From: an uncultured Pirellula sp.
GTDB taxonomy: Bacteria > Planctomycetota > Planctomycetia > Pirellulales > Pirellulaceae
Direction of reading: 5' to 3'
Assembly (NCBI GenBank): GCA_903892355.1
Contig: CAITIE010000150.1
Span: 1-64,000, forward strand
Length of the DNA: 64,000 nucleotides
The notes beneath the pieces were generated by a model, which had not been told where the DNA came from, made no database searches, and saw only the letters and a program-made list of their open reading frames with translations. This document shows positions 5,594 to 14,566 of this stretch, piece by piece. Numbering within the stretch: the stretch's first letter is position 1; every line of letters begins with the position of its first letter. Position numbers and translations under genes: made by a program.

Positions 5594-6532
5594 CTAGCCG
5601 ATTCGTTTGACAACCGTTTCGAGGGTCGGCTTGATGGCAGCAGCGCTCGCTTTAAGGCCTTGGATCTCGCGAGGCCAGAGGTCGATTTCGACCCTCCCGA
5701 CAGCCCCAGATCGCCCGACAACCGTCGGAACACTAATCGCAACATCGCGGATTCCATAACAGGCTCCATCCTGCACGGTGCTTACAGGCAGGATCCTGTT
5801 TTGGTCCAAGGCAATCGCGTGGATCACATCTCGAATGGCGATACCGACGGCAAAACCAGCTCCGCCCTTCTTCGAAATGCATTCCGCACCTGACCCCTTG
5901 GTTCGCGTAAAAATCTTCTCAGCGAGCTGGCTGTTCCATCCAGGGTACTTTTCGAGGGGCAGCGATCCGACCGTGGCACTCGACCACACAGGAACCATAC
6001 TGTCACCATGCTCACCGAGGATGATCGCTTTGGTTTGCGTCGGCGAAGTTTTCAAAGCATCAGAAATCAACGAACAGAAACGGATAGTATCAAGCTGTGT
6101 CCCCAGTCCGATGACTTGGGAAATGGGCAAGCCCAATTTCATCGCAGCAACCGAAGTCAAAATATCGACGGGGTTGGAAACCACCAAAACAATGGCGGAT
6201 TTTTTCAAACCCACTTTCTGCACTTCCGACAAAATCGAAACAAACAGGTCCGTGTTTCGGTTGATCAGATCGAGACGAGATTCGTCCGGTTTACGTCGAA
6301 GACCAGCGGTGATGCAAACGATGTCCGAGTCAGGTACATGCTCGTACCCACCCGAGGTCAACAATTGGTCTGCGATGCTGGGGGCTCCGTGCATCAAGTC
6401 CAAAGCGTGACCGGCTGCTAAGTTCGCATTCAGGTCGATCAGGGCGATCTCACGTACCAAACCTCCGCACTGGAGCGCGTACGCTGCACAGGATCCAACC
6501 AGACCACCACCGCCGATAATACTAACTTTCAT
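5594..6532 (-). CDS. lactate/malate dehydrogenase family, BMC-associated
   Basis: NAD-dependent 2-hydroxyacid dehydrogenase of 312 residues. A glycine-rich dinucleotide loop (GGGGLVGS, residues 7-14) and Asp33 begin the Rossmann fold. The catalytic set is complete: Arg86, Asn120, Asp148, Arg151 and His175 (in GEHGDSMVPVW). The substrate-specificity position before 'KP' in the mobile loop is Arg80, as in malate dehydrogenases, whereas lactate dehydrogenases have Gln; the name 'lactate dehydrogenase' is therefore doubtful. In this operon it may recycle NADH or act on a lactaldehyde-derived product. No encapsulation-type helix is visible, so it may lie outside the shell. It is 109 bp downstream of the aldolase gene. 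Confidence 0.9.
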   Translation of the reverse strand: MKVSIIGGGGLVGSCAAYALQCGGLVREIALIDLNANLAAGHALDLMHGAPSIADQLLTSGGYEHVPDSDIVCITAGLRRKPDESRLDLINRNTDLFVSILSEVQKVGLKKSAIVLVVSNPVDILTSVAAMKLGLPISQVIGLGTQLDTIRFCSLISDALKTSPTQTKAIILGEHGDSMVPVWSSATVGSLPLEKYPGWNSQLAEKIFTRTKGSGAECISKKGGAGFAVGIAIRDVIHAIALDQNRILPVSTVQDGACYGIRDVAISVPTVVGRSGAVGRVEIDLWPREIQGLKASAAAIKPTLETVVKRIG

Positions 6533-6641: not shown

Positions 6642-7592
6642 CTATTTCGATTGCAGCTCCCGCATAACCTGTGCGGTGATCAGCTTGACCAATTGCTCCA
6701 TGTCGACTCCGTCGGCGCTCGGTGCACTTCCCGAGGATGCAGCAACTGCCTGCTTCAGGACCGGTGGTGCTCCATTGGAGCCAGGGTTCTCGGAACCACC
6801 GCCGACCGTGGTTGCCGATGTCGTTGCCGCCGCTGGCATCGCAGGTGGGGCAGGGAACGCGCGCCGAGCCACTCCCGATTGCTTCCAGGAGTCTCTGAAA
6901 ATGTCGTTCGCGCAGATATCGCAATCCTTGTACTGCTCGGTATTGCGGGGGTCAGCCCATCCCCATTTTTGCTTGAGCGTCAACAGTTCCCGCTCTTGAT
7001 TTTCGTCGAAGTAGCTGACGTTCCCCAATTGCCGAGCCAGCATCAAGATTCGGCAATAGGCATCGAGAATCTCCGTCCACCAATACGCCTGCTCGACATC
7101 GACACCATAGCTGACCGTACCATGGTTCGCCAAAATGATCACATTCGACTTATCGACGAATGGCAACACCGTATCCGCGAACGCTTGACCGCCCGGGGTT
7201 TCATACCGAGTGATGGGCACATCCCCGAGGAAGACTTCGACTTCAGGAAGAACGCATTGGGGGATCGGTTCGCGAGCAACTGCAAAGGCGGTTGCATACG
7301 GCGGATGGCAGTGAACCACGCTCTTGATATCAGAGCGCTGCTTATAGATTTCCAAATGGAGCAACGCCTCGCTCGATCGCTTCTTGATCCCCGCAGTCTG
7401 CTTGCCCGTCATATCGATCGTGCAAATATCCTCCGGCTTTAGGAAGCCTTTGCTATGCATGGTCGGAGTGCAAAGCACTTCGTTCTCACCGATTCGGACA
7501 GTAATATTGCCATCGTTGGCAGCCGCGAAGCCTTTGTTGTAGAGCCTTCGGCCGATTTCACAGATGTCTTGCTTGATTTTATGCGCGTTCAT
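6642..7592 (-). CDS. class II aldolase (fuculose/rhamnulose-1-phosphate type) with C-terminal encapsulation peptide
   Basis: Zn-dependent aldolase of the AraD/FucA fold, 316 residues. Likely catalytic residues: Glu75 in SSEALLHLEIY, Zn ligands His94 and His96 in VVHCHPPYA, and His157 in LANHGTV. The expected reaction splits L-fuculose-1-P or L-rhamnulose-1-P into DHAP and L-lactaldehyde, as in planctomycetal BMCs. After the catalytic domain (to about residue 240) comes a low-complexity Pro/Ala/Ser/Gly linker and then an amphipathic helix, DMEQLVKLITAQVMREL (about 299-316), the mark of a BMC encapsulation peptide. Ten bases separate it from the upstream BMC-P gene. The exact sugar phosphate cannot be read from sequence. 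Confidence 0.92.
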   Translation of the reverse strand: MNAHKIKQDICEIGRRLYNKGFAAANDGNITVRIGENEVLCTPTMHSKGFLKPEDICTIDMTGKQTAGIKKRSSEALLHLEIYKQRSDIKSVVHCHPPYATAFAVAREPIPQCVLPEVEVFLGDVPITRYETPGGQAFADTVLPFVDKSNVIILANHGTVSYGVDVEQAYWWTEILDAYCRILMLARQLGNVSYFDENQERELLTLKQKWGWADPRNTEQYKDCDICANDIFRDSWKQSGVARRAFPAPPAMPAAATTSATTVGGGSENPGSNGAPPVLKQAVAASSGSAPSADGVDMEQLVKLITAQVMRELQSK

Positions 7593-7602
7593 GGAATCCT
7601 GA

Positions 7603-7902
7603 TTATCTGTCTTTCAAAAGTTCAGGGTGGATGTGAATTTCATCGATGATGGCCGAGTTGTAGGCATCGACCGGTTTTGCCGTGGGCCGGAACGGCTGAG
7701 CGGCCTCGGCTCCATCGCTCACCGCGATAAGAGATCCGACAGACGCTCCGAGATCGTCCCAGACGACCACAGAATCGGGTTCCGCGATCGACCCTCCCAC
7801 CAAGCTTTCGCCGATGGGTTCCGTCAATTTCAAAGTGCTACCCGTCATGCTCGGATGAGCACGATTCAAGGTAACTGTTCCGATGACTCGATATAGCTGC
7901 AT
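7603..7902 (-). CDS. BMC-P (EutN/CcmL) shell vertex protein, copy 1
   Basis: A 99-residue single-domain pentameric vertex protein that caps the corners of the compartment. It begins MQLYRVIGTVTLNRAHPSM and contains 'LVVW'-type strands and the 'GASVGSLIAVSDG' turn that replaces the usual GAGxGD..L...G. The start is the ATG at 7902: AGGA lies six bases upstream, and the frame further upstream overlaps the previous gene. Compared with the other two copies it has a longer C-terminal tail, 'DEIHIHPELLKDR'. It is one of three BMC-P genes in the operon; having three distinct copies is typical of the Planctomycetes/Verrucomicrobia BMC type. Confidence 0.92.
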   Translation of the reverse strand: MQLYRVIGTVTLNRAHPSMTGSTLKLTEPIGESLVGGSIAEPDSVVVWDDLGASVGSLIAVSDGAEAAQPFRPTAKPVDAYNSAIIDEIHIHPELLKDR

Positions 7903-7910
7903 GTTTTTTC

Positions 7911-8642
7911 CTACGACCTGGATCGCGAATGGTCCAGAAAGTGCCTGGCAATATTTGCAACTCCCGCGATATTCCAGCGTTTCGATGGAACGATCAGCAC
8001 ATTCGTCGGCACCTCGCGGAGTACATCCGGCAAATCGCTCCATTGACTCACGATGGCGGGTCGCAGCGCATCATCACGTGCAGCTTGCCATAACGCCGAA
8101 TGGGGCGCCGAGACGATCGCCATCGCGGTTGGATTGCCACTTCGAATCGCACGGGCTACGGATCGCATCGCCGCGGCATCATCCGCGTGCACAGCATCGA
8201 TCTGAGTCTGACGAGGGCATAGTTGTTTCTCGAGGCTCGCAATCCATGGCGAGGATCCTGCGATGAACAGGCGGCGCGGTTTGGAGGCTCCCTCTCCACC
8301 GTGACTGGCCAAAACAGCGCTGAGAGACTCCGACGTTGCCGCTTGAGGCTTATCGACATCTCTCGATGAAGTGCGAACGATTTCAATTCCCCGTTCGCGA
8401 CACCAATCGCGCGCCGATGGGGTTACGACCGATGACGAACGGATTTGTATTCTCTTTTCACTTGAGGGTAGCTTGAGTCGATGCAATGCGTCGACGCTAA
8501 CCACCGATGCGTCCAGCGTGATCGCAACATTTGCTGCGGGCACGGCGGTTCCGCTCGAAGAGAGTCCCGAAAGGTTTCGAAGCACCTCGCGGACGATCCG
8601 CTCAATCTCAGCAGGATTCACATTGGATGCGTTGAGGCTCAT
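7911..8642 (-). CDS. unrecognised BMC cargo-like protein; possible degenerate RpiB/LacAB-like domain
   Basis: A 243-residue protein of unknown function inside the BMC operon. Residues 9-24 (NPAEIERIVREVLRNL) match the encapsulation-type helix of PduL in the same operon almost position for position. Residues 74-88 read TPSARDWCRERGIEI, a short motif I associate with some Eut/Pdu proteins (uncertain). Residues 123-236 follow the strand-helix order of RpiB/LacAB isomerases, with 'AIVSAPHSALWQAARDDALRPAIV' and 'TNVLIVPSKRWNIAGVANIARHFL' resembling their C-terminal core, but the catalytic Cys loop is absent. The ATG at 8642 overlaps the stop of the upstream BMC-P gene (ATGA). An encapsulated isomerase-like or scaffold role is inference. 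Confidence 0.7.
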   Translation of the reverse strand: MSLNASNVNPAEIERIVREVLRNLSGLSSSGTAVPAANVAITLDASVVSVDALHRLKLPSSEKRIQIRSSSVVTPSARDWCRERGIEIVRTSSRDVDKPQAATSESLSAVLASHGGEGASKPRRLFIAGSSPWIASLEKQLCPRQTQIDAVHADDAAAMRSVARAIRSGNPTAMAIVSAPHSALWQAARDDALRPAIVSQWSDLPDVLREVPTNVLIVPSKRWNIAGVANIARHFLDHSRSRS

Positions 8643-8932
8643 GTGCGTCCTCCTCGACCGGGCTTTTCGGGTTCGTCGTCGATCAAGCCGAGCACCGCCC
8701 ATCGAATGGGGCTATTCTCCAAGCCATACAATTCCCGCACCGCACCACCGTCGCTGGTGATCATCACCATATCCCCCGCACCCGCACCGAGATGATCCAC
8801 CGCAAGCAACGGGGCGCCATCGCGAGAGCGTCGATCCGCAGCGAGCGGTTGGCACACGAGCAGCTTGAGATTATCCAAGCTGGGGTGCTTGACCGTCGAG
8901 ATCGCGTTACCGAGTACCAAGGCTGATTGCAT
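8639..8932 (-). CDS. BMC-P (EutN/CcmL) shell vertex protein, copy 2
   Basis: A 97-residue vertex protein. Family marks: the N-terminal strand 'ALVLGNAISTVKHPSLDNLKLLVCQPL', then 'LLAVDHLGAGAGDMVMITSDGGAVREL', the classical GAGxGD..L...G motif, and a final 'IRWAVLGLIDD' strand. The tail is short and basic. The ATG at 8932 is chosen over a TTG three codons upstream. Its stop overlaps the start of the next gene by 4 bp (ATGA), implying translational coupling to the RpiB-like protein. There is an 88-bp gap to the upstream aldehyde dehydrogenase. Confidence 0.93.
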   Translation of the reverse strand: MQSALVLGNAISTVKHPSLDNLKLLVCQPLAADRRSRDGAPLLAVDHLGAGAGDMVMITSDGGAVRELYGLENSPIRWAVLGLIDDEPEKPGRGGRT

Positions 8933-9029
8933 GAGGATCAATCGGTGAACAGGTTAAAACGGAGAATGGAACAAAGGATGCGGGTTAGATGCGAGAATAA
9001 CTATGGCGGGCAGAAGAACCCTGTTGGGC

Positions 9030-10496
9030 TCAGCGACCGAGGATGAACAAGTCGTCGATCAATGAGCAACGCCGTTCGCGTGTGAATGTCATCGGGGTCG
9101 TGACACCTTCGCCGGTAGGACCAGCTATCGAGAAGGATATGTAGCCTTCACCGCCTAATCCTAGCGACGCCATGCATGGTCCGTTTTTGACGAACAAGGT
9201 CGTGTCCATCGCACGGGCCATCACGGTCATGTTTCGAACGTTTCGGGAATGGATCATGCTGGTATGTCGGTAGCCATGCTCTGCTTGTTGGGCGCATTCC
9301 ACGGCAGCTTCAAAGCTCGGGCAGCGGACGAATGGCACAAACGGCATCATCTGCTCCGTTTGAACGAAGGGGTGATCTGCGGTCGTTTCCCCAAAAACCA
9401 GTTCGGTCCGAGGATCGACTTTGCGGCCTGCGGCCTCTGCCAGCTTGTAAGCATCCTGGCCCAAGAGTTCCTTGCGAGCTGCGAAGTGTTTGTCCGATCC
9501 TTCGCCGACCTCCTGCAACGCAGCGGATGTCAGTCGATCCACTTCTGGGCCACTCAAACGCACAGCTCCGGCCCGTTCCATCGCCGCCATCATCGCGTCG
9601 AAAACACTATTGACGACGAACACTTCTTTTTCAGCGATGCAGAGCAAATTGTTATCGTATGCAGCACCTTGAATGATGCATCGCGCTGCCAAATCGAGAT
9701 CGGCTGTTTCGTCGACGACAACCGGCGGATTGCCCGGACCGGCAACCACAGCACGCTTGCCACTGTTGAGTGCCGCTCTCGCAACCGCAGGTCCACCCGT
9801 CACGCAGATCAACGCAATCTTTCGGTGCTTGAACAATTGCTGAGCGGTTTCCAAGGTCGGTTCGCAGATCAAGCAGATCAGATTATCGATACCGATTTCC
9901 GCCGCGATCGCTCGATTGAATCGCTCCACACCGACAGCGGCGACTTTCTTTCCGCTCGGGTGAGGGTTGACGACAATCGTGTTTCCACCGGCGATCATGC
10001 TGATCGCGTTTCCAGTAATGGTCGGGAGCGAGTGCGTCACCGGTGTGATCGCTCCGATCACACCAAAGGGAGCGTGTTCGATCACAGCTAGGCCGTGGTC
10101 GCCGCTGAAGCACTCTGTCTTCAAAAACTCGACCCCTGGCGTTTTCTCACCGAGCGTTTTCAATTTCTCGATCTTGTGGACCAATCGACCAATCTTCGTT
10201 TCTTCCATTTCCATGGTGCCGAGTTCGACACACTGGCTTATGGAGATCCGCCGGATAATGTCGATGATCTTCCGTCGATCATCGATAGGTCGCTTTTGCA
10301 ACTCTTCGAACGCGGTTCGTGCAGCGGCAACGGCAGCGTCGACATTGTCGAACAATCCGTGCTTGCCCCGCGTCGCATTGGATACGGTCGAGGTGCTTGC
10401 AGAAGAAGCAGGCGCCCCAGTCGTCCCAGGTTGGTTTCGGACTTGGTTGATGACTTGCTCAACCACGCTTCGGATCAGTGTTTCATTGATTTGCAT
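9030..10496 (-). CDS. pduP: CoA-acylating aldehyde dehydrogenase (PduP/EutE type) with N-terminal encapsulation peptide
   Basis: Oxidises lactaldehyde, propionaldehyde or acetaldehyde to the acyl-CoA with NAD+, inside the microcompartment. The 488-residue protein has an amphipathic helix at its N-terminus (NETLIRSVVEQVINQVR, residues 4-20), a Ser/Thr/Ala-rich linker (about 21-45), then the ALDH fold. The catalytic thiol is Cys286 in DNNLLCIAEKEVF. The 'ITPVTHSLPTITGNAISMIAGGNT' segment is the cofactor-binding region of the EutE/PduP group. It lies six bases from the upstream BMC-P gene. The symbol is by functional analogy; which aldehyde is natural cannot be told, but the aldolase neighbour favours L-lactaldehyde. 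Confidence 0.95.
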   Translation of the reverse strand: MQINETLIRSVVEQVINQVRNQPGTTGAPASSASTSTVSNATRGKHGLFDNVDAAVAAARTAFEELQKRPIDDRRKIIDIIRRISISQCVELGTMEMEETKIGRLVHKIEKLKTLGEKTPGVEFLKTECFSGDHGLAVIEHAPFGVIGAITPVTHSLPTITGNAISMIAGGNTIVVNPHPSGKKVAAVGVERFNRAIAAEIGIDNLICLICEPTLETAQQLFKHRKIALICVTGGPAVARAALNSGKRAVVAGPGNPPVVVDETADLDLAARCIIQGAAYDNNLLCIAEKEVFVVNSVFDAMMAAMERAGAVRLSGPEVDRLTSAALQEVGEGSDKHFAARKELLGQDAYKLAEAAGRKVDPRTELVFGETTADHPFVQTEQMMPFVPFVRCPSFEAAVECAQQAEHGYRHTSMIHSRNVRNMTVMARAMDTTLFVKNGPCMASLGLGGEGYISFSIAGPTGEGVTTPMTFTRERRCSLIDDLFILGR

Positions 10497-10502
10497 GGAA
10501 CT

Positions 10503-10811
10503 TTACTGTCGTTTGTAAACGTTATTTTTTTCGATACTGACGGTGTCGACGATGCCGATAATGACACAATCGATGGGGAGCTTACCTGTTTCTGGAGTGA
10601 AACGGGCACTGCTCCCCTGGGTGATCAGCACCATATCTCCGACCCCGGCGCCGAGCGCATCGACGGCGATAAAGGTTCGTCCGGTAGTGATCAAAGACTG
10701 GCGGTCCTTAGTGTCCAAACGGTATGGTTCCACGACGAGCAATTTTTGCCCTATCATGGAATCGACCTTCTGAGTCGATACAACGGAACCGGTGACTTTA
10801 GCGACGAACAT
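10503..10811 (-). CDS. BMC-P (EutN/CcmL) shell vertex protein, copy 3
   Basis: A 102-residue pentameric vertex protein beginning MFVAKVTGSVVSTQKVDSM. It has the typical 'KLLVVEPY' strand, 'FIAVDALGAGVGDMVLITQGSSAR' (canonical GAGxGD..L...GS.AR) and 'IDCVIIGIVD'. It is the most canonical EutN/CcmL of the three. It lies between ackA (38 bp upstream) and the aldehyde dehydrogenase (6 bp downstream). Confidence 0.94.
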   Translation of the reverse strand: MFVAKVTGSVVSTQKVDSMIGQKLLVVEPYRLDTKDRQSLITTGRTFIAVDALGAGVGDMVLITQGSSARFTPETGKLPIDCVIIGIVDTVSIEKNNVYKRQ

Positions 10812-10849: not shown

Positions 10850-12097
10850 TTAGTTTTTTAAACGAAGCGCTTCGACGGTTTGCCGCGCCACGATCAGTTC
10901 TTCGTTGGTTGGGACAATCCAAATCTCGACATTGCCGCGCGTGTCAGCGATGCTCTGCGTTGTGCTTCCGTTCGAGGTTCCAGTTTGGTCGGCACCTGAA
11001 TCGATGCGACGCTCCTTGGCCCCGCCCTGATTTTTCTGTTCGCAAAGAGAGATCCCGAATTGGCTTAACCCTTTGCATACCTCGCGGCGAACCCATTGGG
11101 AGTTCTCACCGATTCCACCGGTGAACGCGATTGCGTCGACCCCTTCGAGTGCGACCATCAACGAACCGAGTTGCCGTCGAATTTCTGCGACGAAAACATC
11201 GAGCGCGAGCTTGGCTTTGGCGTGCCCATTCGAGGCAGCTTCTTCCAAATCCCGCACGTCCTCGGACAACCCACCCGACAACCCCAGCAATCCAGCTTGG
11301 GTCGACAGCATTTTCAACAACTCAGGCAAAGCCAATCCCGTATGCTCCATCATCAATGGAAGCGCGTAAGGATCGATATCTCCAACCCGATTGTTGTGAG
11401 GCAAGCCTGTTTGAGGGCTCATCCCCATCGTCGTCGCCACGCTTTCACCTCCGCGGATTGCGCACATGGAATTGCTGCCACCGAGGTGGAGCGAAATCAC
11501 ACGCGCATCGTTCCGACCGAGCAATTGGGCAGTACGCCATCCGATGAATCGGTGAGACGCTCCATGAAATCCCCACTTGCGAATCGGCAGTTTCTCAGCG
11601 ATCGAATCCGGAATGGCATACCGCTTCCAGGCATCGGGGATCGTTTGATGAAAGCCCGTTTCAAAGGCGGCGACCAAAGGTATCTTCGATGCCATATTCG
11701 CCAACTGCCGCATCGCGGCCATGTAAGGCGGATTGTGGGCTGGGGCGACCGAGTTCATTTCCTCCATCGCTTCCAGAACCGTGTCATCGATGATTTGAAC
11801 ACCCGAAATTCGCCCCCCATGGACTGCTTTGAATCCAATGGCGGAAATCTCCGAGGCATCTTTGAGGCAACCTCCATCGGGATTTGTCAGCTGCCGAATG
11901 CATGCATCGACCGCCACACCATGGTTGGGAACCGATTCATTGGTTTCCGCGCGGTGCTCACCGATCTCAACAAAGCAACGACTCACAGGCGAACCGATCC
12001 GCTCAACACCACCGCGAGCGAGTTGACGCTCATCAGCCATGTCGAAAAGACGGTACTTGAAACTGGTCGATCCCAAATTGGCAACGAGTACTTTCAC
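10850..12097 (-). CDS. ackA: acetate kinase family, BMC-associated
   Basis: ASKHA-fold kinase of about 415 residues that makes ATP from acetyl-phosphate (or here perhaps lactyl- or propionyl-phosphate). It starts VKVLVANLGSTSFKYRLF, the usual N-terminal 'N.GSSS.K' motif. 'WGFHGASHRF' and 'ISLHLGGSNSMCAI' follow in order; the latter differs from the usual HLGNGAS. The GTG at 12097 is preferred: AAGGA lies seven bases upstream in the 22-bp gap after the BMC-H gene, and the longer reading to 12247 runs through that BMC-H gene. Together with PduL it conserves the thioester energy. No encapsulation peptide is visible, so it may act in the cytosol. Confidence 0.93.
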   Translation of the reverse strand: MKVLVANLGSTSFKYRLFDMADERQLARGGVERIGSPVSRCFVEIGEHRAETNESVPNHGVAVDACIRQLTNPDGGCLKDASEISAIGFKAVHGGRISGVQIIDDTVLEAMEEMNSVAPAHNPPYMAAMRQLANMASKIPLVAAFETGFHQTIPDAWKRYAIPDSIAEKLPIRKWGFHGASHRFIGWRTAQLLGRNDARVISLHLGGSNSMCAIRGGESVATTMGMSPQTGLPHNNRVGDIDPYALPLMMEHTGLALPELLKMLSTQAGLLGLSGGLSEDVRDLEEAASNGHAKAKLALDVFVAEIRRQLGSLMVALEGVDAIAFTGGIGENSQWVRREVCKGLSQFGISLCEQKNQGGAKERRIDSGADQTGTSNGSTTQSIADTRGNVEIWIVPTNEELIVARQTVEALRLKN

Positions 12098-12119
12098 GTG
12101 TCGATCCTTGACTGAAAAA

Positions 12120-12389
12120 CTATTTGAAGAACGCGGAAGCCAACCCTTCGGAAGGACGAGGAATGATGTGGCTGCTAACCAATTCACCAACCTGTGCTGC
12201 CGCAGCTGCTCCGGCTTCGACCGCAGCGCGAACGCTCCCGACGTCACCGCTGACGACGGTCGTTACGTACGCACCACCGATATCGACTCGCTTCACGATT
12301 TCAACACTTGCAGCCTTTGCCATCGCATCGGTGGCTTCGATCAGAGCCAGCAAGCCTTTTGTTTCGATCAATCCAATTGCGCTTTGCAT
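12120..12389 (-). CDS. BMC-H hexameric shell protein 1 (CsoS1/EutM-like pore)
   Basis: A single-domain BMC shell tile of 89 residues. It begins MQSAIGLIETKGLLALIEA, the standard start of this family. The pore loop reads IGGAY (residues 37-41), close to the F/I-GGGY pore of carboxysomal and Eut hexamers, and unlike the second BMC-H here. The end 'HIIPRP' is the usual strand before the C-terminal helix. It lies 108 bp downstream of the other BMC-H gene and 22 bp upstream of ackA. The two hexamers probably tile the facets together with different permeability. Confidence 0.96.
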   Translation of the reverse strand: MQSAIGLIETKGLLALIEATDAMAKAASVEIVKRVDIGGAYVTTVVSGDVGSVRAAVEAGAAAAAQVGELVSSHIIPRPSEGLASAFFK

Positions 12390-12497: not shown

Positions 12498-12800
12498 TTA
12501 CTCAGCGGAGGACGACGGAGCGGACACCTTGAGGACTTTGTTCAAGTCATCATGCGGGCGAGCGATCACTTGAACGCTCAATACTTGTCCGATTCGGCCA
12601 GCAGCCGCTGCACCTGCATCGGTCGCAGCCTTCACCGCTGCCACATCTCCACTCACGAATGCCGAGACCAAGCCGCTACCGACTTTGTCCCACCCGAGGA
12701 ACTTCACGTTCGCTGCTTTCATCATTGCGTCGACTGCTTCCACCAAGGCGATAAAGCCCTTGGTTTCGATCATGCCGAGAGCTTCGTTGTTCTTTGCCAT
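12498..12800 (-). CDS. BMC-H hexameric shell protein 2 (PduA-like pore)
   Basis: A 100-residue BMC shell tile. The core '[19 protein letters not shown]' and '[18 protein letters not shown]' are close to PduA. The pore loop is VGSGL (residues 40-44), as in the PduA pore with its Ser. The end '[15 protein letters not shown]' is also PduA-like, followed by a short Ser-rich tail. The start is supported by GGAG nine bases upstream of the ATG. It is the first shell gene after pduL in the operon. Confidence 0.96.
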
Positions 12801-12923: not shown

Positions 12924-13637
12924 TCAATGGTCATGGCATTTGCACGGAGCCTGACGCTTTAGTTCGATGGTGGTGGCATGATCCAAATCACAAGCATTGC
13001 CTTCGTCGGTGTCGATATGGACCTCCAGCTTGGCGTTCGCATCCTCGCGAACCAAGACATCTTCAAAGGTGACGCCGCATTGATGACTCTTTACCGACAA
13101 CGACATAAAGTCACCATTTTTGACTCCGTAATACGCACAGTCCCGAGGATTGATGTGAACGTGACGAGCAGCACGAATCACTCCTTCGCTGAGTTCGACG
13201 GCTCCCGCGGGCCCCACCAACACACAACCGGGCGTGCCCCGAATATCCCCGCTATGACGGACCGGTGCATCGATTCCGAGGGAAATCGTATCGGTAAATG
13301 CCAATTCCACTTGGCTCGCTTTTCGTGTCGGCCCGAGCACCCGCACGTTGGGAAGCATCCGTCGCCGGGGCCCAACGATCATCACGGTCTCAGCTGCCGC
13401 ATAAAATCCGTCTTGATACAGTTCTTTTTCCGGCGTCAGCGTTTTACCTTTGCCGAACAGCTTCTCGACATGCTCGTCGGTTAAGTGCACGTGCCTCGCG
13501 GAGATACTTACGACGAGCTTGGGAACATAGACGCCCCCCTCACTCGCTCCCGGCACCCCGGAAAGCGCCTTGGCAATCGCGTTGCGTACCAAGGATTCAA
13601 TGCGACTAGGATCCATCGTCTGTATTGATGCACTCAT
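12924..13637 (-). CDS. pduL: PduL-type phosphotransacylase with N-terminal encapsulation peptide
   Basis: Transfers the acyl group from CoA to phosphate, freeing CoA inside the compartment. The 237-residue protein has an encapsulation-type helix at residues 9-25 ([17 protein letters not shown]), then two beta-barrel domains. The Zn-binding His pairs are His49/His51 (RHVHLT) and His159/His161 (RHVHINP); '[10 protein letters not shown]' holds the expected phosphate-contact Arg105. The ATG at 13637 overlaps the deoR stop by 4 bp (ATGA), which fixes the start; an upstream reading enters the deoR repeat. The tail ends CKCHDH, an unusual Cys/His cluster, and the last codons lie in a 15-bp direct repeat (12902-12931). 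Confidence 0.94.
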
Positions 13638-14566
13638 GATGTTTGCAACCCATGATGGGATGAATTGTCGACACGAACACCCGCGCTCGGGCCATTCGTC
13701 TCGGTTGTTGATACTTCGGTTGAATTGCTGTCGGCTTGCTGGGTATCCGCTTGTTGGGTATCGGCTTGTTGGGTATTCGCAGTAGCCAGTAGGAGTTGTG
13801 TCTTCAGTTCTCCGACGTATTCCCTCCAACGCGGATCCAGTTCGTCGTCCACCACAAGGGTATCGACGTCACTCCATTCGCACATTCTCGCCAAGCTAGA
13901 GCGTCCAAACTTGGTACTGTCCGCGACGATCACCGTTTTGTCGGCCGCCCGCATCATGCATCGCTCCGTTTCCACCAGCAGCATGTTGCTGTTGAAGAAA
14001 CCCTTGGAGTTGATTCCAGCAACGCTCAAAAACGCTTTTTGCACATTGATCGTTTCCAGCATGTGATCGGTATACGGTCCGTGGGTGACTCCTGTGCGAT
14101 TGTGAATCGCACCCCCTAGCAGCACCAAATCGACCGAATCGCTCGCGGAAAACAAGTTCGCCACGGGCAAGGAATTGGTTACGATCTGCAGAGGACGTCC
14201 GACCAGTTGTCGAGCCAACTCGTACGTCGTACTTCCGCCATCGAGCAGGACCGTATCGTGGTCTTCCACCAGTCGAGCCGCGGCGACCGCAATGCGACGC
14301 TTCTTTTCCCAAGTCCCATCGCCGCCATCCCGCTTGGACTCGAACTGGCGAACCGTAGTGCTAGGCCCTGTGAAAAAGACGCCGCCGTGGGTCCGTTTCG
14401 CCTCGCCGCTCTCCTCGAGCGACTCCAGATCGCGGCGAATCGTCGACTCGCTCACTTCCATCGCATCCCGCAAATCTGGAATCGAAACGAACCCGTGCTG
14501 GCGAATCAATTCGCGCAACTTGGCCCGCCGGGCTAATGACCCATTGAGATGACTGGGAGGAATCAT
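13634..14566 (-). CDS. DeoR-family transcriptional regulator of the BMC operon
   Basis: A 310-residue regulator. The winged helix-turn-helix (about residues 13-68) has '[27 protein letters not shown]' and 'KRTHGGVF', the DeoR signature. It is followed by the DeoRC sugar-phosphate sensor domain with '[13 protein letters not shown]', 'IVTNSLPVA' and 'VLLGG'. After the sensor domain is a linker with three TQQAD repeats and a Ser/Thr/Asn-rich tail, longer than usual. It is first in the operon and overlaps pduL by 4 bp, so it controls its own transcription unit, probably as a repressor released by a sugar phosphate such as an aldolase substrate (inference). Confidence 0.93.
13731..13775 (-). repeat. 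15-bp in-frame minisatellite in the deoR gene
   Basis: Three tandem 15-bp units (TCSGCTTGYTGGGTA on the plus strand) encode TQQAD three times near the C-terminus of the DeoR regulator. Only single-base differences separate the units, so the array is recent or kept homogeneous by slippage. Copy change would lengthen or shorten the linker without a frameshift. Confidence 0.9.

Follow-up and report, generated by a model that had tools for sequence, protein, structure and literature searches.

A candidate core–shell linker of planctomycete PVM microcompartments, built from a cargo-like helix, a small domain related to parts of PduM, EutQ and EutT, and an RpiB-like fold lacking catalytic residues

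A gene lodged between two BMC-P shell genes of a planctomycete microcompartment locus encodes a three-part protein that is probably a core–shell linker of the PVM (Planctomycetes–Verrucomicrobia) compartment. The protein comprises an N-terminal helix of the encapsulation-peptide (EP) type, a small α/β domain and a C-terminal domain with the RpiB/LacAB fold but without the catalytic residues of those isomerases, and it is this EutQ-like composition that suggests the linker role. The original prediction, made from the letters of the window (the whole stretch of 64,000 nucleotides analyzed here), had proposed a scaffold, a regulator or a new activity. We favor the scaffold, but mainly through the small domain, which had been overlooked, and not through the RpiB-like half, because this second domain is common to PduM, EutQ, EutT and TIGR02536. 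Only in very few systems is it understood in detail how metabolosomes join core and shell.

A conserved gene in a fixed slot of PVM loci

The window locus has the gene content described for the PVM compartment of fucose and rhamnose breakdown in the portion of PMC4207490 consulted: a class II aldolase, an aldehyde dehydrogenase, PduL, an acetate kinase, a lactate/malate dehydrogenase, and BMC-H and BMC-P shell genes (Table 1). In an aldolase comparison and tree, its closest named relatives are Pirellula-type planctomycetes. A further gene at 13634–14566 presumably encodes a DeoR-type regulator, and a DeoC/LacD-family aldolase gene (PF01791, 4714–5520), possibly a second aldehyde-producing aldolase, adjoins the PVM genes. 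A 2014 AEM paper on the compartment reportedly named its genes PvmA to PvmO and left PvmL without an assigned function; our literature search found no PVM linker protein by name. The target frame has an alternative, longer ATG at 8702, but the start at 8642, and with it the originally predicted coordinates, are retained because this ATG is preceded by a GAGGAGG ribosome site and shares the four bases ATGA with the end of the upstream BMC-P gene.

Table 1. Positions in the window of the target gene, its parts and its neighbors
Feature	Position	Strand	Evidence
Target gene, 243-residue protein with EP, small domain and RpiB-like domain	7911..8642 (stop codon included)	minus	ORF
Amphipathic, EP-like helix, residues 9–25	8568..8618	minus	AlphaFold2; PduL likeness; family pattern
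Small α/β domain, residues ~41–93; proposed shell-docking module	8364..8522	minus	AlphaFold2 model; profile comparisons
RpiB/LacAB-like domain without catalytic residues, residues 121–243	7914..8282	minus	AlphaFold2 model; fold comparison; alignment
Residues V177–H181, replacing the RpiB C66-G-T-G-V catalytic loop	8100..8114	minus	alignment
Lactate/malate dehydrogenase	5594..6532	minus	PF00056/PF02866
Class II aldolase, PVM type, EP-like C-terminus	6642..7592	minus	PF00596
BMC-P (EutN/CcmL) shell gene, downstream of target	7603..7902	minus	PF03319
BMC-P (EutN/CcmL) shell gene, upstream of target, 4-base overlap	8639..8941	minus	PF03319
Aldehyde dehydrogenase, EP-like N-terminus	9030..10496	minus	PF00171, PRK15398
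Third BMC-P gene	10503..10811	minus	
Acetate kinase, ORF as listed; real start probably further in	10850..12247	minus	
BMC-H shell gene	12120..12389	minus	
BMC-H shell gene	12498..12800	minus	
PduL-type phosphotransacylase, its EP the comparison sequence for the target helix	12924..13640	minus	PF06130

Of the 146 genomes of the order, 53 gave relatives in a search with one sequence, and 118 were matched by a profile of 30 relatives (A1). Removing five genomes whose match is plain-RpiB-like by profile position or E-value (G075, G100, G112, G120 and G143, the last dropped though the position of its match is not shown) leaves 113, and in 108 of these the gene precedes the PVM aldolase in the same orientation at a distance of 223–945 bases, space for one BMC-P gene. 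The PVM aldolase itself occurs in 134 of the 146 genomes (E ≤ 1e-30), and 24 genomes have the aldolase but not the family. Among these 24, 14 show none of the PVM shell genes over the ~4.6 kb that precede the aldolase on its own strand, five have intact PVM loci in which both BMC-P genes are adjacent, and G030 has a 116-residue remnant; G061 and G143 end at a contig edge, and the loci of G112 and G145 were not included. When the search is widened to the phylum, matches at E ≤ 1e-8 occur in 54 of 294 genomes, of which 33 belong to other classes. No relative of the protein was found in viral contigs.

A survey of other loci of this compartment type, one of the checks that the original prediction had named, was made with 80 loci fetched by their aldolase and not by the target gene; wherever title or taxonomy states the group, these are planctomycetes, and the set does not reach Verrucomicrobia. 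The gene is present in 76 of the 80, so that its absence from such loci, which would have counted against the first reading, was not observed. Where more than 2 kb of upstream sequence is available, 71 of 72 loci carry it just upstream of the BMC-P gene that adjoins the aldolase; the sole miss is L179, and the other three misses of the set have less than 600 bases upstream. The PVM loci that are intact without the gene, their BMC-P genes being neighbors, are thus L179 and the five from the order (L056–L059 and L061, from G004, G008, G022, G026 and G033), and a search of those five genomes for the small domain at E < 0.1 found no copy outside the locus.

A three-part protein with a cargo-like helix

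An AlphaFold2 model from 46 sequences (mean pLDDT 86, pTM 0.57) consists of a helix at residues 10–25 and compact domains at about 41–91 and at 121–243, joined by low-confidence linkers. The predicted model of a more central family member, L168, has the same layout (pLDDT 86.9).

Several observations indicate that the N-terminal helix is cargo-like and predict a targeting function for it, in keeping with the first reading of the protein as a likely cargo. The match of residues 9–24 to the targeting helix of the window PduL at identical positions amounts to 5 of 16 identities, a level that 200 of 100,000 shuffled PduL N-termini reach. The short terminal amphipathic helix plus linker of a BMC cargo encapsulation peptide is present, and 110 of 125 family proteins have an EP-like pattern no later than residue 45, against 1.8% in shuffles; this set omits L100, whose contig starts inside the gene, and the C-terminal-only half of L131. 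For several of the 15 proteins lacking the pattern, the cause is the start codon chosen. In one locus (L160, 8941–9642) the open frame starts just before the small domain and has no targeting helix, and a relative (L164, 2849–3478) may likewise be helix-free. Comparisons with PDB entries gave weak matches to the first ~22–27 residues of a flavodoxin (5veg_A, E 1.4–1.5) and to diol dehydratase gamma (1dio_G, E 0.44), the only non-isomerase matches that fit a targeting helix.

A small domain related to parts of PduM, EutQ, EutT and TIGR02536

The small domain, modeled at pLDDT of about 88–97 over most of its length, holds the most constant motif of the family, VVTPAARD, whose T and P are invariant in a 68-row alignment (A6). 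Profile comparisons support its homology to parts of PduM, EutQ, EutT and TIGR02536. When the domain alone was scanned against NCBIfam (18,950 models), 54 of the 68 members matched the C-terminus of TIGR02536, which we take to be a hypothetical protein of Gram-positive eut loci; two PduM models were matched at their C-termini by 27 and 20 members, EutT by four and EutQ by two, and the other ten of the 15 listed families by one member each. The PduM models were matched over their C-terminal ~42 positions only, and a whole-length PduM match was not obtained (best listed, 18.3 bits against 50 for TIGR04493 and 19.4 against 179 for PRK15428). By hhalign, the domain scored 31.7 against EutT (probability 78%; maximum 19.8 in 200 column shuffles), 27.2 against PduM (59%; maximum 15.4 in 200) and 24.6 against EutQ (33%; maximum 15.5 in 200). 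Single-match E-values are weak and hhalign probabilities middling, but each of the three hhalign scores lies above all of its shuffles.

A six-frame scan of the 5.37-Mb Klebsiella record CP125156 returned, as the best two of four matches, EutT residues 5–45 (E 0.0086) and EutQ residues 2–42 (E 0.086). The PduM of that record was not returned, and a scan of the PduM-bearing plasmid NZ_CP018017 gave no match, so the homology to PduM is argued from the NCBIfam and hhalign results. PLSDB lists CP125156.1 (L184, L189) among Klebsiella plasmids, but this record, with both eut and pdu operons, is evidently a chromosome. In the source genome, the target gene is the only strong copy of the domain (4.5e-16; next, 0.05). 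A literature search without most subscription journals and preprints did not find the shared domain in print.

An isomerase fold without its active site

The C-terminal half has the RpiB/LacAB fold in the AlphaFold2 model and in a fold comparison (VIA-align, residues 120–243), as had been predicted, and the outcome that would have counted against that assignment, a fold unrelated to RpiB, was not observed. The window protein does not match PF02502 at E ≤ 1, and 16 of 30 family members do (best, 7.8e-7), L004 exceeding the gathering score. In the reverse direction, a check of ten weak second matches that A1 gave in other genomes showed all ten to be PF02502 proteins.

In an alignment reliable for residues 153–241, the C66-G-T-G-V loop of Escherichia coli RpiB faces V177-S-A-P-H, so that the predicted replacement of the catalytic Cys loop by SAPHS holds up to one residue of register. 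The loss extends throughout the family. No Cys occupies the C66 position in 30 sequences of A1 or 46 of A4, no Gly the G69 position, and no His or Asn the ring-opening His99 and Asn100 positions; A1, A4 and the 125-protein set overlap, the same genomes having been reached by two routes. Other positions are retained: Arg stands at the K78 position in 30/30 (A1) and 34/46 (A4), and N103 is kept in 30/30 and 39/46. The domain is best explained, from alignment and model, as a pseudoenzyme with an isomerase fold and no active site.

Recurrent loss of the C-terminal domain

In 12 of the 76 aldolase-fetched loci with the gene, the protein consists of helix and small domain only and ends right after the domain, at 81–116 residues with the start chosen, and the BMC-P gene follows; a gene cut by its contig end (L038) is not counted. 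On the aldolase tree these short forms need six changes, at least three of them forced by starred branches, and the same form occurs within the order in seven genomes of family f7 and in G070. In 12 further loci the protein is long but the C-domain profile finds nothing at E ≤ 0.1. By contrast with this repeated loss, the helix-plus-domain part is detected in 75 of the 76 loci, the exception being L100, truncated by the start of its contig. The RpiB-like half is dispensable, because natural forms have only the helix and small domain; the idea that it is the conserved business end of the protein is rejected, since it is the part repeatedly lost.

Two loci have unusual forms. In L131 (7561–8220), one stop codon in the linker cuts off the helix-plus-domain part from a C-domain that is otherwise intact and still in frame; this may be an early stage of the C-domain loss found in other loci, or a sequencing error. 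In L102 (4805–5857), the target frame continues into BMC-P1-like sequence, and a separate BMC-P1 ORF was not found there; either the protein is naturally fused to a shell pentamer or the assembly is wrong at this point, the case being confined to one MAG.

Discussion

We propose that the N-terminal helix would attach to the enzyme core by pairing, helix to helix, with the encapsulation peptides that the aldolase, aldehyde dehydrogenase and PduL carry, and that the small domain would dock on the shell, the role that its homologue at the N-terminus of EutQ appears to have in Eut compartments. The RpiB-like domain probably dimerizes, which would make the linker bivalent, comparable to the dimeric C-terminal domain of EutQ. 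If this is right, the window protein is also a pseudoenzyme retained as a scaffold part. Several observations temper the linker reading. The PVM loci that have shell genes in place but no target gene imply that the compartment either does without the protein or uses another linker, and the L160 form, lacking a targeting helix, speaks against the reading. In a strain without PduB residues 1–37, PduM is reported to have remained with the cargo and not the shell (PMC9132943, in part); the partner of the domain in PduM may therefore be PduB and not the shell tiles.

Among the alternatives, the foremost is that the small domain serves as an additional targeting tag, bringing in a cargo protein whose work, a new enzyme activity, is done by the C-domain. 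EutT, which has the small domain at its N-terminus, is an enzyme, and the domain may therefore do no more than target; the C-domain, moreover, retains some conserved residues, including the Arg at the K78 position and N103. We nevertheless regard a new enzyme as unlikely: the Cys, His99 and Asn100 positions are substituted throughout A1 and A4, and the C-domain, being absent or unmatched in the two groups of 12 loci, is too changeable for an essential enzyme. Harder still to credit is a sensor in which the RpiB-like domain would bind, but not convert, a sugar phosphate or a nucleotide and so signal the state of the lumen; its Rossmann-like fold and several remaining conserved polar residues would suit such a role, but the glycine loop has been replaced and the domain is repeatedly lost.

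Two further candidates can be set aside as very improbable. If the small domain were an E3-binding (PSBD) domain of 2-oxoacid dehydrogenase E2 chains instead of a BMC domain, one could account for the PF02817 matches of 4 of 30 family members at E ≤ 1 (best, 0.0031) and for weak PDB matches to the E2 domains 1w4i (E 0.2) and 3rnm (E 1.5); this similarity is weak and confined to a short TPAARxLxxxxGI stretch, and BMC families dominate the matches. Least credible of all is a working RpiB/LacAB isomerase with another catalytic base, like the Glu75 reported for Mycobacterium tuberculosis RpiB (PMC4783025, in part), which despite the clear RpiB fold we reject on the lost catalytic positions: the M. 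tuberculosis Glu position is Ala in 32/46 and 26/30 sequences and Glu in 3/46 and 0/30, the ring-opening His and Asn positions are lost, and the source genome has two ordinary RpiB genes elsewhere.

Beyond the linker reading of the window protein, a broader one, to which we lean slightly less than to its negation, is that a single shell-docking domain could be common to connectors of unrelated metabolosomes, namely PduM (Pdu), EutQ and EutT (Eut), TIGR02536 (other Eut loci) and the window protein (PVM). The core–shell joint would then consist of an EP-like helix plus this domain, mounted on a cupin, on an adenosyltransferase, on a dead isomerase or on no carrier at all, the ~85-residue forms being would-be minimal linkers. 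Were the shared domain real, PduM would gain relatives and a conserved unknown of PVM loci would be explained; the shell-side part of PduM, EutT and TIGR02536 proteins would be predicted; and compartment engineering would have natural adaptors of ~85 residues.

Comparison with known systems

Known systems share parts of this architecture to different degrees. The RpiB/LacAB isomerases (PF02502) have the fold of the C-domain, but their catalytic Cys, His and Asn positions are lost in the family. TIGR02536 matches the small domain over its C-terminal ~44 positions and nothing beyond that stretch. CcmN of β-carboxysomes, named in part of PMC12487888 as a linker that binds shell and cargo, resembles the window protein in linker role, by description alone.

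PduM is described as a low-abundance structural protein for core–shell connection (PMC12108088, PMC9132943), with a signal sequence at residues 1–23, and loss of PduM partly separates core and shell (PMC12108088); the sections of the latter report consulted state that PduM has no known homologue outside Pdu. Like the window protein, it combines an N-terminal signal sequence with the small domain, here at the C-terminus (113–153 and about 120–160 in the two models), and the pduM gene likewise adjoins a BMC-P gene. By contrast, the middle of PduM is unmatched, and PduM has no RpiB-like domain.

EutQ offers the fullest parallel. In Salmonella Eut, according to portions of one report, EutQ is required for linking cargo to shell, the shell contact is placed by deletion analysis in residues 9–41 (H1/H2) and that with cargo encapsulation peptides in 62–99, and assembly proceeds without the dimeric C-terminus (PMC12487888); EutQ is also reported to bind EutM in vitro (PMC4827028, in part). 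The H1/H2 stretch is the region homologous to the small domain, within the N-terminal ~45 residues of EutQ, and EutQ has cargo-binding helices as well. The two proteins differ in their C-domains, a cupin with acetate-kinase activity in EutQ and an RpiB fold in the window protein, and in their order, which is domain, helices and C-domain in EutQ but helix, domain and RpiB-like C-domain in the window protein. The EutQ composition of a core helix, a shell domain and a dispensable probable dimer thus appears to be repeated in another order and on another carrier.
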